The notes below the pieces were generated by a model, which was not told the DNA's origin, made no database searches, and saw only the letters and a program-made list of their open reading frames with translations. The translations under genes were made by a program, and so were the position numbers. From Ischnura elegans (taxonomy: Eukaryota; Arthropoda; Insecta; Odonata; Coenagrionidae): 64,000 nt of DNA. Positions within the stretch are counted from its first letter, which is position 1. Each line of letters opens with the position of its first letter. The stretch is taken from the NCBI RefSeq assembly GCF_921293095.1, contig NC_060257.1, forward strand, positions 92,989,449 to 93,053,448, read 5' to 3'. Shown here piece by piece: positions 27,447 through 38,420 of the stretch.

Positions 27447-28739
27447 TCAAGCATTCCCAGCACTTCTCTGCTCGTTCCACACGTCCAACAATTCTTTGGG
27501 GTTACCATATCCATGCGACGCTACAACGTACCGGTATCCAGAAACACTGTAGTCTTTGGGATAAAAGTGAAAATCGTCACTATGAAAGGGTTCAAGTCCA
27601 ACCTTGGCAGCAGCTAGACCGAGGAAAATATCATCAAACCTGAAATGCTTGGTGTACATTGATGCAAAGTAGAGGAGGCGAAATGCATTTTGCGACAAAA
27701 CGAATGCTCCTGCCGTGACGTAGGGAGGCCAGCGATCGTAAGGATATTCGGACAGAGAAACATACCACCGGCTGGACTTGTGGCGATGGGGAGAAGAGTA
27801 AAACACGTAACCTGCCCACAGCAGGGCATCATCAGGAAGATCAAAATCAACCACCTGGAGAGGCCTCCTGCTCACACTCGAAATGGTGGAATTAATAAGT
27901 TCATGCAATGAGTTACTCGGGATGCTTTTGAGGGAATCCAATTCACTTTGATTCCACACCTTCAGATAGGATGCTGCTTCCGTCTTCAGAGATGGCGCAT
28001 AATTTTCAGACAAAACTGAACTAGAACCAGGGCTCGTATTGGATTCCTCAACACTGCGCTTTCTCCGATTTTGATCCAAGCTAATGATAGGGCTTTCTAA
28101 ATAATGGGGATAATGAGTGGGATTACGGATAAACCTAAGTACATTTTTTGTGGAAATATACATGTCATCATCAGAAAAGAAGTACACCCTGGCGTTTGGG
28201 CAATATTCCATTGCCCACTTAAAACCCATCATGGTTTTAATAGTATTGTTGTAGTAAGCATCCACGAAGTTGGCTTGCACTATGTCTCTGTACTTAAGAT
28301 GTTCCTTGAGTATTCGCTTTTGAATTTCAGCGTCATTTTTAGAAACTCCTAGTACAAACACCCTCCTTGTTATCACGTCAGAAAACCGTCCTTCGAAACC
28401 CCAAGAATTGCGAATAGCTTGTCTTCGATGGAAATTATCTAATGCAGATTTCACTAAATAAACAAGACGAGGAGAGCTGGCCTCCAATTTACATTTGTGA
28501 TCACAGTTTAGCAAGAAGGTGTAATTGTAAATGTTTATTGGTGCAACATCGGGCTTTTCACCCCGTTCCAACTGGTCAACGAAATGATTGATGTCACCAT
28601 CGTAGGGGTACCGAAAAGATGATGAAAATTCCTTCTCGAATATATGTTTTAGGGGGCCTAAGAAATCCACAACAAATATTATAAGTACAGCTAAAATTAT
28701 TGTTTTGCACGTAACACGTTTAAACATTCGGAGGTACAT
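27447..28739 (-). CDS. brn: Brainiac-type beta-1,3-N-acetylglucosaminyltransferase (GT31)
   Basis: Golgi type II membrane enzyme. Fly brainiac adds beta-1,3-GlcNAc to mannosyl-glucosylceramide in arthro-series glycosphingolipids and acts in epithelial signalling (known for the family). Seen here: a cytoplasmic tail; one membrane segment (about 10-28); FEGRFSDV and RRVFVLG; DAYYNNTIKTMMG; the metal-binding FSDDDMYIS (DDD at 190-192); WAGYVFYSSPHRH; EYPYDRWPPYVTAGAF (331-346); and FRFDDIFLG, ending WNEQRSAGNA like fly brainiac. It has 430 residues versus about 325 in Drosophila; most of the excess is one insertion (about 206-305) between the DDD block and WAGYVF. Single coding exon, intact. Other GT31 members (generic beta-3-GalT) fit less well because the C-terminal half is brainiac-specific. 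Confidence 0.95.
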   Translation of the reverse strand: MYLRMFKRVTCKTIILAVLIIFVVDFLGPLKHIFEKEFSSSFRYPYDGDINHFVDQLERGEKPDVAPINIYNYTFLLNCDHKCKLEASSPRLVYLVKSALDNFHRRQAIRNSWGFEGRFSDVITRRVFVLGVSKNDAEIQKRILKEHLKYRDIVQANFVDAYYNNTIKTMMGFKWAMEYCPNARVYFFSDDDMYISTKNVLRFIRNPTHYPHYLESPIISLDQNRRKRSVEESNTSPGSSSVLSENYAPSLKTEAASYLKVWNQSELDSLKSIPSNSLHELINSTISSVSRRPLQVVDFDLPDDALLWAGYVFYSSPHRHKSSRWYVSLSEYPYDRWPPYVTAGAFVLSQNAFRLLYFASMYTKHFRFDDIFLGLAAAKVGLEPFHSDDFHFYPKDYSVSGYRYVVASHGYGNPKELLDVWNEQRSAGNA

Positions 28740-28860
28740 TCTGCGGCGAACATAGGTCCCTGAAAGAAAAGGAAGAACGATAGATAATACATTGTTATCA
28801 TGGGAAAGTTAACTATGATAAAATTTGAATGAATTGACGTACCTTGAACTAATCAACGGC
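28740..28860 (-). other. brn: Brainiac 5' leader with an 83-nt intron
   Basis: Upstream of the ATG, reading the minus strand, acceptor TTTCTTTCAG|GGACC (exon base 28,759) and donor TTCAAG|GTACGT (exon base 28,843) define an intron of 28,760-28,842. The leader portion of the coding exon contains an upstream ATG (ATGTTCGCC) in another frame. It opens an 18-codon frame that overlaps the brainiac start and could damp translation. Confidence 0.6.
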
Positions 28861-29250: not shown

Positions 29251-30213
29251 GTAAGCACAAATTTACATACTTTTTATACACGTGCTTTCTCTGGTAGCAA
29301 TCCAAGTAAATTTTCACATCTTGGTTCACTGACCGCCGTATTATTATTAGAGATATTTGGGGGTTTTGAAATTTATCGTCACTTGTATCTGGTCGTAAGT
29401 AGCTCTAAACGTTGTATCAATGCATGCGGAGTATTCTCCATCGGAAACTTCGTAGTGGTGTTCTCTTGTTGATAATCATAGTACGTCTGTCATGTAAATC
29501 ATTGCTTGTTTTTGTTCCTCCGTCTTGCTACTTAATCTTTGTGCTTATCTATTATGTTATTTATCATCAATTATATTTTTTGTGTATACTCGAGTTATTT
29601 TTTGTTCGTAAGTCGAATAATAGGCGAACATTGGTTTGATCCTATTACCTTTAATGAAGGTAAAATAATATTCATTTTGCGAAAAATTGTATATTACCAA
29701 CGTCTATAGATATACCTACCTCTGTGGGTTGGAAAGGTCTTATCGATAGCTTCTATGGAGTTTCGTTTCGTTGGTAATACGCAATATTTTATCATTATAA
29801 CTCCAAGGAAGGAATCACCCTAGTGTCCAGTAATTTAAAATACTGTTTTTCGCTTGATATTGTACGCCTTCCCAGTTTCTGCTTACGTTTTCCCAGGATC
29901 GCATTCTATTGGTTATTTGTTATGATTTGGATAAATAAATTTCTTCTTCGGAAGTACTAGTAATTCACTTTTTACTTCTTAAAGCGACGTTACACATGAA
30001 ATACAAACTTCAGTACATAGGTGGATACTAGGCTAACAAGCTACAATGCGTACCCAGTTACTAAAATAAATTATGAAATATGATCACTTATTTTGAATTA
30101 TAAATGATTCTCCAGTACTCTCTACTCAATTATGATTTTAATACATGTTTAATGAGAAAGCATAACATATTCATAACTTTTTCAGCTTTTAATGTCATCA
30201 CATAATGTCATGT
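29251..30213. other. Unassigned; short repeat at 30,057-30,115
   Basis: AT-rich. The segment 30,057-30,115 (CTAAAATAAATTATGAAATA and following CTTATTTTGAATT) resembles 36,502-36,560 in the same orientation. These two positions flank the broken copia element, so they might be remnants of its LTRs, but the match is only about 60 bp. Confidence 0.35.
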
Positions 30214-30455
30214 TACACCAATATCATGTACATAAACAAATACCATCAGTTCACCACTAAAATCAATGTACACACATCTGTCTTTCATAATTTTAGGAAG
30301 ACCTAACGCAACAATTTTTTTCATCTTGTGCCATTCCATAGCACTCTGCTTTAATCCATAAAGAGTTTTAGTCAGTTTCCACATTTTGTCTTCCCATTAT
30401 GATTTAAAAAACTCTGGCCGTTCTATGTACACAGTTTCTTCCAAAGGAGGATTTA

Positions 30456-31186
30456 GGGTCATTCCATGTCAAATCAACCAATATTTTGACCAAAGGACAC
30501 CCACCGACTCGGATTTTCATGAAACTTGCCAAGGTCATACATTCTGGTATAATTAGAATTTGTGTGCAATTTTAGCCCCCAATTTTCAATTGTTGATGAA
30601 ATATGAGCAATTGAAATTTGGGCGTGACCCATAAAGTGCCGCAACGTGCAACACACGGTGATTTTTATTTTCATCCATAACTCCATTCCTGTGAAATGAA
30701 AAGGCAAGATTTTTTTTTCCAAAGATAAGTGATTCATATTGATCCCACGATTATCATTAAATATTCACTGCATGAAGTAATTCAGCTGCAAAAAAATAAA
30801 GTTTACAAAAAAATCCTGCTTGTACCATTTTCCATTGTCAGCATCCACAGGGAAAGGCCATGCGAATACAGACTCATGGTTCGGTTTAAAGTAATCATTA
30901 ATGTATGAGCAAAGATCCTGATGAAAAAAAATCGTGAGTCCGGCGTTCCTTTGAGTAAAATTAAATACTCATTCATGGTCACGGGAAAAAAAGGCTCTTT
31001 TTCAAGGCACATAGATATTACTCGATTTAGAGGAGATATAACCTTATACTCATGATAAAACAATATTGGAGCATGCATTACCTCACTATAGCGTATGCTA
31101 CTGTCTCTTAGAGTAGGAAACACATAAGCAATCATGTGAATGTACTCTCCAACGTACTGCTAATTTCGTGCTTTCAGGACTATTCC
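30456..31186. repeat. Left terminal inverted repeat of the long-TIR element
   Basis: 731 bp, matching the reverse complement of 34,206-34,928 nearly throughout. It includes an 87-codon minus frame with a plus-strand partner in the other arm, which is only the palindromic image. Similarity ends abruptly after ACTATTC. Confidence 0.9.
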
Positions 31187-31519
31187 TACTAGGCTATCTC
31201 TTCCATGGGTAATGGGCAACTGAATAGTATGGGTATAAAATGTAAAGGCAGAAGAGAGCCATCAGAATGTTTTCTTCAATTACAGTCTAAATGAAGTTAA
31301 TTAATTTCTCAGTCATATGGTGCTGCCTTAGTGATATCCTGGTTGAATTTCAGACTAAGTATCTCATGTTTGTGTGGCTGATAGCCAGGCTTACATTTTA
31401 ACATCTCATTCGTATTGAGGTCTGTCTGGCCATGTCAGAGATACCATTGTGCTGTGATGGCAAATAACTCAGTTCTGAATTTCACAAAAAGAGCTACACA
31501 AACACAGCCCAAACTTTTT

Positions 31520-33700
31520 ATTTCAAAGAACTACCAGAAGTGGACAGAGATTTAATTGCCCTGCAGTGCAATATTCCTATTTCATCATTGTTAACTCTGT
31601 GCTCTCATCATCTTCATTGCTACTTAAAGAAATACGAGTGTTATCAGCTTAATTGCAGTACCCCTTTGCCATTCATAAAGGTCCTGTTAGGAAATTTCTT
31701 AGGACCATACCTCTAAAAAAGTGTAGGTCTGTGAGAGCAGCGGGCATCCTGGTGAAGCCTGGAGGAAAATTTTGCTGTAGGTGTGACAAGATTTCCAAAA
31801 TTTGTAATAGCGAGGTTGTTTCCAATGGCATTGATGAAAGCAATCAAGAACTTACATCAGTTCAGTCTTTGGTGGAAAGCGATAGAAAATAAGAAGAAGC
31901 AAACTGTAGCTCGGAGGCTTTAGACTACTCTCCTTTGAAATAATTTTTTTGTCTTCTCACAGTAGACACTCATATGGATAAGGAAAGATAACACAAGCTA
32001 AGCATCACCTTGTATCTAAAGTGTCTGGTGCATTAAAATTTGTGAATCCATCCCTGGAAAATCTAAGTGGTGATGAAGATGAGAGTGACAGTCAACTCAT
32101 AAAGCATAGGGCAGCTAACTTGGATGACTTGCTGACTAAAATTAAGAATAAATTGCCAACAGATAGCTGGCAGGGTAAACTTCAAATGTTGACCCTGGCC
32201 CCTTTATCTTGGTCTAGGAAAAGGATTATGAGTGAATTTTATGTTTCAGACTACACTGTGAGACAGGCAAAAAAGTTCCTTCATGAGAAGGGAATATCTG
32301 CTATGCCATCACCATGTGCTGGGAAACCACTTCCAAACTCCACAGTAGAGCTGGTGAAAAATTTTTATGAGTTTGACAAAAATTCTAGGCAGATTCCGGG
32401 AGCCAAAGATAAATTTAGTGTGGGTAAGAATGAGTATATGCAGAAGAGGTTATTTTATGTAACCTCAAGGAACTTTATGTGTTATTCGAAGAGCAATATC
32501 CACAAGAAAAAACTGGGTTCTCCAAATTTTGTTCACTTCAGCCAAAATGTTGTGTGATGGCTGGTGCTTCTGGGACTCATTCAGTTTGTGTTTGTGTCAT
32601 ACATCAAAATGTGAAATTTCTAATTAGTGCCTTGCAATTGAAGGAAACATATAATGAGTTGATGGATATCATTATTCCTAAATTTTGTGAATACGACCCC
32701 CTTCTGATACAGTGAAACATAGGCAGTGGGTTTCCACTGATAGAACAGAACTTCAGTTGTTTACATCATCCATTAATGAACTCTTGGACATTCTATGCCT
32801 CAAAATGAATAAACTGATGCCACATTATTACGTCACTAAAGAACAACCCTAAAAAATTTTTCAAAATAAGCAAAGAAACCCTCAGTCATGAAAAGGCTGT
32901 TATCATAATGGATTTTAGTGAAAAGTTTTCATTTTTAATTCAGGATGAAGTTCAAAGTTATCACTGGACCAATCTATCATGCACCATACACCCTTGCTTG
33001 ATTTACCTGAAGAAAGATAGTACTCTCACCACCTCATCTCATTGCTTCATATCTGATGACCTTAGCCATGATGTGGCCTTTGTTATGGAAGTGCAACGCC
33101 ACCTGATTAAATTTTTAAAGAGAAATTACCTTTGACCCAAGAGGTTCAGTGCTTCACAGATGGATGTGCGGGGCAATATAAAAACGGCAAGTCTTTTATA
33201 AATTTTTGCCATCATTATAATGACTATGGAATGAATGCAACCCAGTCTTTTTTTTCCACAAGCCATGGAAAGTCCTCTTGTGATGGTATAGGTGGTACCA
33301 TTGAACGAATGGCGCAGCAAATAACAAACAGCTGCAGGATGTGTGAATTTTGTAGAGATAAAATGAAAAACATCAACATCAACATAACATTTAGTCCAGT
33401 GATGTGGCTTGGTCACCTAGTAAACTTCTTGAAAGATCCACCAAGGCAAAAACAATTCCAGGCACAAGAAACTTCCATCATTTTGTGCCTTTATCGAATA
33501 GAAAAGTCACTGCAAAGTTCACTGGGTTGGATGACGAGTACAGCATTATATTTGATTTTTGTTCGGAAACAGTGGATTTCCCAAATAATTTGGCTGTTGG
33601 TTCATGTGCAGCTTGTATTTACAGCAAGCAGTATGGTACATTGGACCAGTGGAAGCTCTCAATCATGAAGGAGGTGATATTTCAGTTAAATTCATGACAC
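31520..33700 (+). pseudogene. Decayed transposase-like gene of the long-TIR element
   Basis: Several plus-strand frames belong together. At 31,535-31,800 a Cys/His-rich region (TLCSHHLHCYLKKYECYQLN, then VKPGGKFCCRCDKI in another frame) looks like a zinc-binding N-terminus. At 32,021-32,557 a 178-codon frame contains QGKLQMLTLAPLSWSRKRIM and SDYTVRQAKKFLHEKGI. At 33,132-33,400 there is a frame with FTDGCAGQYKNGKSFINFCH then SHGKSSCDGIGGTIERMAQQ, whose D-G and D-G-GG residues suggest an RNase H-fold (DDE-type) catalytic core. Proteins with this pattern are, from memory, common but uncharacterised in invertebrate genomes. Frameshifts and stops mean this copy is inactive. Confidence 0.65.
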
Positions 33701-34205
33701 TTAATGGGCCCTCACCTTCATTCTCTTGGCCTTAGAGATATGATGTTTGCTATGTGCCGCTAGGACACACATTGTGTGTGCTTAATTCTCCTGCAACCAC
33801 GAGCTATGGGAGGTCATACTACTTCTTGAGGAAGTGGCCAACATTCAAAAAAAATATTTAGACTTTGTGAAAAACACATCTTAGAATCTGGTCAGCCAGT
33901 TAAAAAGAGGAGGCTCACTTTCAAACCAAACAGTAGGGTTGTTAATTTAATTTTACTATTTTTACCTAAATTTCCAATGATATAGAATGACCACATGAAA
34001 CATTGATAGGGTGAAGTACCTGAGAAATTTCTCAATTCAAATGATTTGATGACGGTTCCGTTTGACATTTGATTATGTACATTCCTGTGATGTCAATACA
34101 TCTGGATATGAAATGAATCTGGTCTTTGGACACAGATTAAAATGAATGTAGGATGTAATAGTGTACCATGGATCATGCAGTTTTTTAAAATTAAAACTCC
34201 CTCTG

Positions 34206-34928
34206 CTCGAATAGTTCAGATAGCACGAAATTAGCAGTACGAGGGGGAGTACATTCACATGATTGCTTATGTGTTTCCTACTGTAAGAGCCAGTAGCATA
34301 CGCTATAGTGAGGTAATGCATGCTCCCATATTGTTTAATCCTGAGTATAAGGTTATATCTCCTCTAAATCGAGTAATATCTATGTGCATTGAAAAAGAGC
34401 CTTTTTTCCCGTGACCATGAATGAGTATTTTATTTTACTAAAAGGAACGCCGGACTCACGATTTTTTTTCATCAGGACCTTTGCTCATACATTAATGATT
34501 ACTTTAAACCGAACCATGAGTCTGTATTCGCATGGCCTTTCCCTGTGGATGCTGACAATGAAAAATGGTACAAGCAGGATTTTTTTGTAAACTTTATTTT
34601 TTTGCAGCTAAATTACTTCATGCAGTGAATATTTAATGATAATCGTGGGATCATTATGAATCACTTATATTTAGAAAAAAAAATCTTGCCTTTTCATCTC
34701 ACAGGAATGGAGTTATGGATGAAAATAAAAATCACCGTGTGTTGCACGTTGCGGCACTTTAGGGGTCACGCCCAAATTTCAATTGCTCATATTTCATCAA
34801 CAATTGAAAATTTGGGGCTAAAATTGCACACAATTTTTAATTATACCAGAATGTATGACCTTGGCAAGTTTCATGAAAATCCGAGTCGGTGGGTGTCATG
34901 GCCTGGTTGATTTGAAATGGAATGACCC
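34206..34928. repeat. Right terminal inverted repeat of the long-TIR element
   Basis: 723 bp, the inverted partner of 30,456-31,186. The two arms differ by scattered substitutions and small indels, giving an approximate age for the copy. Confidence 0.9.
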
Positions 34929-34983
34929 TTTATGTAACCAGTATGAACATCTAAGTGGTAAATTTCCCATCCTTTTAACACTG

Positions 34984-38299: not shown

Positions 38300-38420
38300 A
38301 CCTGGATAGCATAGTGGTGTGGGCATTGGCCCAGAAAGCCAAAGGTCTGTGGTTCGATTCCCGGTCGAGGGGAATTTTTTCTCATGGCAATTCATGAATG
38401 TATTTGGATTTCTCAATTTT
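38300..38420 (+). mobile_element. tRNA-derived SINE
   Basis: Has an A-box-like TAGCATAGTGGTGTGGGC (38,307-38,324) and a canonical B box GGTTCGATTCC (38,351-38,361), spaced as in a tRNA gene. It is followed by TTTTTTCTCATGGCAATTCA, shared with the inverted fragment at 38,092. It is not a functional tRNA: no clean acceptor stem is seen. Confidence 0.65.

Follow-up and report, generated by a model that had tools for sequence, protein, structure and literature searches.

A decayed long-armed DNA transposon of likely Sola affiliation in Ischnura elegans, and the two kinds of end among its relatives

A 64,000-nucleotide stretch of the Ischnura elegans genome (contig NC_060257.1, positions 92,989,449 to 93,053,448, assembly GCF_921293095.1; hereafter the window) contains a DNA transposon with very long terminal inverted repeats at window positions 30456-34928. 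We interpret it, with a probability of roughly 0.78, as an inactive long-armed transposon copy that is no longer autonomous, likely of the Sola superfamily, and that would have moved by cut-and-paste through a predicted RNase H-fold transposase of the DDD type.

The terminus GGGTCATTCCATG begins at 30456 and recurs in inverted orientation at 34928, where the right end is the reverse complement of GGGTCATTCCATT. A 19-base terminal pattern occurs twice in the window, where chance alone would give 0.05 matches. The arms are about 95% alike and pair in three inverted-repeat blocks of 94-97% complementarity, differing at 34 of 725 aligned columns (11 transitions and 23 transversions; Kimura two-parameter distance 0.048). 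TTTA adjoins both ends, and joining the flanks across a single TTTA restores a minus-strand reading frame, HLDVHTGYIN followed directly by PPLEETVYIERPE, which we take to be part of a copia reverse-transcriptase region. Window positions 30208-30396 match Pfam RVT_2 with an E-value of 1.7e-7 and 31.5 bits, 0.1 below the curated cut-off. Since the flanks read through as a copia-type reverse transcriptase, the DNA insertion took place within an older retrotransposon fragment. A long-armed DNA transposon flanked by a TTTA duplication had been proposed in the initial annotation, the duplication on the strength of copia continuity, and both proposals are borne out here. Its start at 30452 included the duplication, the element proper beginning at 30456. 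The features of the element and its insertion site are as follows.

30452..30455, unstranded: left target-site duplication TTTA, from the empty-site join
30456..34928, plus strand: whole transposon, 4473 bp, a copy of lineage A
30456..31185, plus strand: left arm, 730 bp, long-spacer end with the inner conserved block about 40 bp from the terminus
34209..34928, minus strand: right arm, 720 bp, short-spacer end with the inner block about 31 bp from the terminus
34929..34932, unstranded: right target-site duplication TTTA
30208..30396, minus strand: copia-type reverse transcriptase fragment, the insertion target (Pfam RVT_2, just under the cut-off)

The host genome (1.72 Gb in 110 contigs) holds many related ends. 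A search with the left arm returned 870 candidate places, the best 40 of which, including the window's own two arms, were scored and are 91-100% identical, while a 21-base terminal pattern gave 681 matches (350 + 331) against none for the reversed control. Duplications were counted in 21 complete copies (11 from the group of the window element and 10 from other groups) and in 20 inward-facing pattern pairs chosen among the first 100 places listed; L020 and L025, which have no clean second end, and loci with one end only in the fetched stretch were left out of this count. The complete copies are 4.0-5.05 kb long, and self-alignments put their arms at about 0.5-1.0 kb. Of the 41 copies, 37 have an exact 4-bp duplication at their flanks (19/21 complete copies and 18/20 pattern pairs), whereas mismatched-flank controls agree in 4/420 and 6/380 comparisons, respectively. 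An exact match at 3 bp only was seen in 0/21 complete copies and 1/20 pattern pairs, and Zator, which makes 3-bp duplications, was rejected on these counts. The four copies lacking an exact 4-bp duplication are two pattern pairs, L034 (TCTA/TATA) and L009. The last was set aside as evidence against the duplication length: over 443 bp, one flank repeats the other exactly in inverted orientation, and the locus was probably rearranged after insertion, or misassembled.

Because L012 and L013 represent one insertion in a duplicated stretch, 36 distinct insertions with a duplication remain. They carry 29 different 4-mers, so that the 4-bp length of the target proposed in the initial annotation holds, but TTTA as a common or fixed target does not. 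TTAA occurs once among the 36, which speaks against a Kolobok or piggyBac element with a fixed TTAA duplication. Such an element would share the 4-bp duplication length, and the GG..CC termini fit the 5'-RR..YY-3' termini that the accessible part of PMC9587614 reports for Kolobok, together with TTAA duplications and a DDD/E transposase. Kolobok was nevertheless rejected on target specificity, and piggyBac both on target and on its termini, given as CC..GG in the partial description available, versus GGG..CCC here; we consider either identity extremely improbable. Outside the duplication, the flanks show a symmetrical bias, at positions chosen from the same data used for counting: of 72 sides, 50 have T 8 bp beyond the end and 54 have a purine 6 bp beyond it, and T occurs together with its mirrored A in 18 of 36 insertions, against about 3 expected. 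In a separate set of 39 unpaired ends (40 fetched, one duplicate dropped), the bias is weaker, with T in 22 and a purine in 27, and T is enriched at position -13 as well (21). We regard a weak 12-bp palindrome, TNRN-NNNN-NYNA, as the probable preferred target.

Some stretches carry extra arms or remnants. At L016 and L017 (C15:6206316-6216717), three arms follow one another in the same orientation roughly every 4835 bp and have the same flank, which probably reflects the tandem duplication of a stretch containing one end of an element. Contig C14 holds many lineage-A remnants, several of them apparently duplicates of one another, and seems rich in them.

Between the arms lie remnants of a transposase gene, which were placed by tblastn with residue numbers relative to a relative, P0001.

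31450..31668, plus strand: N-terminal Cys/His region, residues 9-81, with an 83-bp deletion near 31595 (tblastn and alignment)
31934..32455, plus strand: helical and helix-turn-helix region, residues 177-348 (tblastn; weak, sub-threshold HTH_23 match in P0001)
32449..32676, plus strand: first part of a Cys/His insert, residues 347-422, with an 81-bp deletion near 32662 (tblastn and alignment)
32700..32846, plus strand: transposase remnant, residues 457-505 (tblastn)
32854..33129, plus strand: start of the predicted RNase H fold, residues 507-600, with the first catalytic Asp codon at 32911-32913
33114..33374, plus strand: predicted catalytic core, residues 596-693, with the second Asp codon at 33159-33161 and the third at 33282-33284
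33422..33834, plus strand: C-terminal beta-rich region in two frames, residues 709-846 (tblastn)

The decay of this gene, noted in the initial annotation, is evident in the broken frames and the two deletions. The plus-strand frame 33111-33665 does hold the FTDGCAGQYKN and SHGKSSCDGIGG motifs singled out there. The N-terminal Cys/His region survives in part and carries a deletion. The DG...DGxGG residues then taken as the RNase H core represent the second and third acids, while the first Asp, in DFSEK/DFxENY, had been overlooked. Downstream of the remnant at 32449..32676, a CMxRxCxxCP cluster has been lost through the 81-bp deletion.

All three Asp residues are invariant in 20/20 aligned relatives (alignment A1) and in five host lineages, and in an AlphaFold model of moderate confidence they sit on an RNase H-like fold. 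The predicted catalytic core aligns with Mos1 and retroviral integrases over approximately residues 507-694. In a second look with a structural aligner, transposases and integrases ranked first, with Argonaute domains nearly as high. Foldseek searches of the model against PDB and viral models returned nothing at E ≤ 0.001; the top PDB row was a herpesvirus terminase nuclease (E 0.0084), whose fold we take to be RNase H-like, and most other rows, such as kinesins, seem unrelated. By sequence, no solved relative was found in PDB, where the only match was at chance level (E 4). The model and the conserved acids point to a transposase of the DDD type with an RNase H-like fold.

The window copy is not alone in its damage. 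In an alignment of seven lineage-A loci (the window, L009, L010, L012, L013, L014 and L025) and two A3 copies, with lineage A2 left out, the 81-bp deletion that removes the CMxRxCxxCP cluster and the 83-bp N-terminal deletion are common to 7/7 lineage-A loci, and neither is present in the two A3 copies. The initial annotation expected intact copies elsewhere in the genome. When a 155-aa piece of the window protein was used as query and the best 150 of 761 candidates were scored, none of lineage A proved intact: no match with at least 56% identity has an open frame longer than 356 aa, and longer frames occur only in matches of at most 49% identity, which belong to other lineages. Given the shared deletions and the want of a long frame at 56% identity or above, lineage A most simply spread by means of a foreign transposase, and was thus probably carried in trans after its own gene had been damaged. 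It could instead have been autonomous while spreading, the shared deletions being alignment effects or tolerated changes, with decay following copy by copy. The catalytic Asp codons retained in the window copy, the in-frame nature of the 81-bp deletion (27 codons) and the private lesions that lineage-A copies also bear would agree with such a history. The 83-bp deletion, however, which all seven aligned loci share, has a length not divisible by three, and the Cys cluster lost through the 81-bp deletion is retained in the 20 relatives and five host lineages aligned; together with the short frames, this makes autonomy during the spread rather improbable, and we retain mobilisation in trans.

Candidate sources of such a transposase exist in the same genome. 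A protein search returned 62 matches; the best 52 of 2284 candidates were scored, with frames counted from stop to stop, and uninterrupted frames among them measured 874 aa (three), 878 aa (two), 887 aa (one), 808 aa (eight), 805 aa (one) and other lengths. The lineages are listed below.

Lineage A: the window's own lineage
Lineage A2: L022-L024
Lineage A3: L026 and L028
Lineage B: L029-L031, with arms of 909 bp and copies 99.7-99.96% alike
Lineage C: L034, broken
Lineage D: L037-L039, 98.7-98.9% alike
Lineage E: L032/L033, uninterrupted, and L040 and L041, broken and 99.9% alike
Lineage F: L042, 771 aa
Lineage G: L035, ends outside the fetched stretch

Mutual identity among the frames of lineages B, D, E, F and G is 34-57%, and the first Cys/His residues are missing from the long frames of D and F. 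Since the lineages scatter among the proteins of other animals in the tree, several old lineages coexist in this host. Their ends are more alike at the tips: when 20 ends taken from 10 copies are compared without gaps, the mean identity between lineages is 95% over the first 10 bp, 80% over the next 11 bp and about 40% over the remainder. Lineage B, with an uninterrupted frame, near-identical copies and exact duplications TAAT, CAAC and CACT, looks recently active, judging by its sequence. Lineage-E copies on several contigs carry one to three in-frame stops, with three in L040 and L041, and this second damaged lineage also seems to have been amplified. One host genome thus contains near-identical long-frame copies, damaged but amplified lineages and short derivatives side by side, leaving trans-mobilisation and arm conversion open to study within a single genome. 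At the locus of one lineage-A2 copy, a 521-aa open frame on the reverse strand (L023:713-2275) resembles, by eye, what we presume to be a pogo/Tigger-type transposase.

The two ends of a copy usually differ in layout. Inward of the terminal 21-25 bp, the arms have a further block in common, which starts some 31 bp from the terminus at one end and some 40-41 bp from it at the other. This offset of 9-10 bp, about one helical turn, was found in 17/21 complete copies across A, A2, A3, C, D, E and F; the three B copies (short/short) and L009 (long/long) have an offset of 0. Lineage-A ends found genome-wide with at most two mismatches number 181 long and 212 short. Among the matches listed (100 + 100 places), 46 inward-facing neighbours lie within 15 kb, of which 39 are long/short, five long/long and two short/short, although these end pairs are partly non-independent, some C14 copies probably being duplicates; none of 100000 label shuffles reached 39 long/short pairs. 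Of the pairs at most 6.1 kb apart, 34/40 are long/short by our own count among the matches listed. Relative to the gene, the long end is 5' in A and A2 but 3' in A3, C, D, E and F, a switch of side to be expected if inner parts could flip through recombination between arms.

What weighs against such pairing as a strict rule is lineage B, all three copies of which have two short ends and which nevertheless spread recently; with L009, which has two long ends, it leaves a strict one-long-one-short rule unsupported. A bolder and unlikely reading is that each element carries one ~31-bp end and one ~40-41-bp end and that its transposase prefers to synapse one of each, under a one-helical-turn rule like that of V(D)J 12/23. 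If this were true, a 12/23-like discrimination of ends would have evolved separately in a DDD transposon that does not belong to the RAG/Transib line; very long arms would result from repair in which one arm is copied onto the other, and the palindrome described below would be the extreme case. The 9-10 bp offset across several lineages in any case provides a testable statement on the choice of ends by such transposases.

Two loci have unusual inverted structures. L032/L033 (C19:1275295-1282863) is a 7.57-kb lineage-E palindrome with unequal ordinary termini and a GACT duplication on both sides; inside these, two perfectly inverted arms of some 3.7 kb each enclose a 26-bp spacer, and each arm carries an uninterrupted 878-aa transposase frame. 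L009, L123 and L124 (C1:125175237-125179687) represent a lineage-A copy with two long ends, no duplication and flanks that are inverted and identical over 443 bp. Both the palindrome and these flanks could reflect repair that copied one side onto the other, or misassembly.

We propose the following mechanism for the spread of the window element. A transposase from an intact sister lineage would recognise the ~21-bp terminus and the inner block 31 or 40 bp in; related lineages with long uninterrupted genes do have similar terminal 21 bp. It would usually pair one short-spacer end with one long-spacer end, cut the element out and join it to both target strands 4 bp apart, probably with a preference for the weak palindrome given above. 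Lineage A would have been carried in this way after the damage to its own gene, and the long arms would be kept alike through mutual conversion or recombination.

Transposases of this group abound in animals, with 788 database relatives, of which 120 were listed. One of these 120 has a precomputed domain, a helix-turn-helix, and public names read 'hypothetical' or 'uncharacterized', with stray labels such as Cc8L18.2-like and ARL14 effector. A Pfam scan of seven window frames and six relatives found no family at its cut-off. Given that the scanned members have no Pfam family above cut-off and the names are uninformative, genes of this group are easily mistaken for host genes, and the ends, target and catalytic core described here make them recognisable. 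The terminal pattern had no match in viral contigs, and a profile of 20 relatives gave 31 pattern stretches in viral contigs and 96 in bacterial and archaeal genomes, none confirmed by tblastn. One window piece had no match among plasmid records. Cc8L18.2 was not mentioned in the literature searched, and the papers listed as matching words from the termini or from the protein were unrelated, judging by title.

The lack of Pfam families, solved relatives and informative names would also suit a distinct, undescribed superfamily that has converged on the DDD core, 4-bp duplication and long arms of Sola, as would the target, which is not as a rule the AWWT of amoebozoan Sola2. Absence from Pfam, however, says little, because we know of no Pfam family for Sola. 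The structural traits given for Sola are all present here, and curated repeat libraries very probably contain a group so common in animals; a new superfamily therefore appears unlikely. The element is likely a Sola member, as matched by description and not by transposase sequence: the accessible text of PMC10741241 gives a DDD transposase, 4-bp duplications, lengths mostly of 2-9 kb and terminal inverted repeats of 11-1124 bp. By size, arms, duplication and core, what the initial annotation regarded as perhaps a poorly described family probably falls in this described superfamily. A curation guide (PMC8969392) makes no mention of Sola. Ginger, with a gypsy-type integrase domain according to the available part of PMC2836005, was rejected, as the six relatives and seven window frames have no integrase match in Pfam at E ≤ 1. 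For Academ (AcademX, with 3-4 bp duplications and a nuclease in the partial description available), the 4-bp duplication alone would fit; no nuclease family appeared in Pfam at E ≤ 1 in the same proteins, with no search aimed at a second gene.

Elsewhere in the window, the beta-1,3-galactosyltransferase gene brn lies at 27450-28808 on the minus strand as an open frame, with 76% identity to Hetaerina americana (a damselfly) and 64% to Ladona fulva (a dragonfly), which by itself points to an odonate host, likely a damselfly. A tRNA-like sequence lies at 38300-38372 on the plus strand (34.9 bits; gathering score 29).

Among known systems, the ends of RAG, ProtoRAG and Transib follow a 12/23 spacing. 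As far as the available descriptions go, the likeness is that block spacings at the two ends lie roughly one turn of the helix apart, 9-10 bp in the present case, whereas termini and duplication length differ; no strict spacing rule is shown here, because lineage B has two short ends yet spread recently. The catalytic triad of Mos1 also ends in Asp, and the likeness to this mariner element and to retroviral integrases lies in the alignment of the predicted core. There is no detectable sequence similarity to them, the Cys/His insert and C-terminal beta region are features of the transposase here, and mariner, in the partial account available, duplicates TA instead of 4 bp. KolobokP carries LTR (long terminal repeat)-like terminal repeats, LTDRs, which leave solo copies according to the accessible part of PMC9587614, in contrast to the inverted repeats here. 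Amoebozoan Sola2 families have AWWT duplications in the accessible text of PMC3627910, and this target is not the rule here, with AAAT and ATAT alone fitting it, in 2/36 distinct insertions. For Sola, compared by description only, the ends with GGGTCATTCC and the 9-10 bp end offset are features to be set against its members, and the published account, as far as accessible, shares with our element the 4-bp duplications, the DDD core, a length of 4-5 kb, arms of about 0.5-1 kb and presence in animals.

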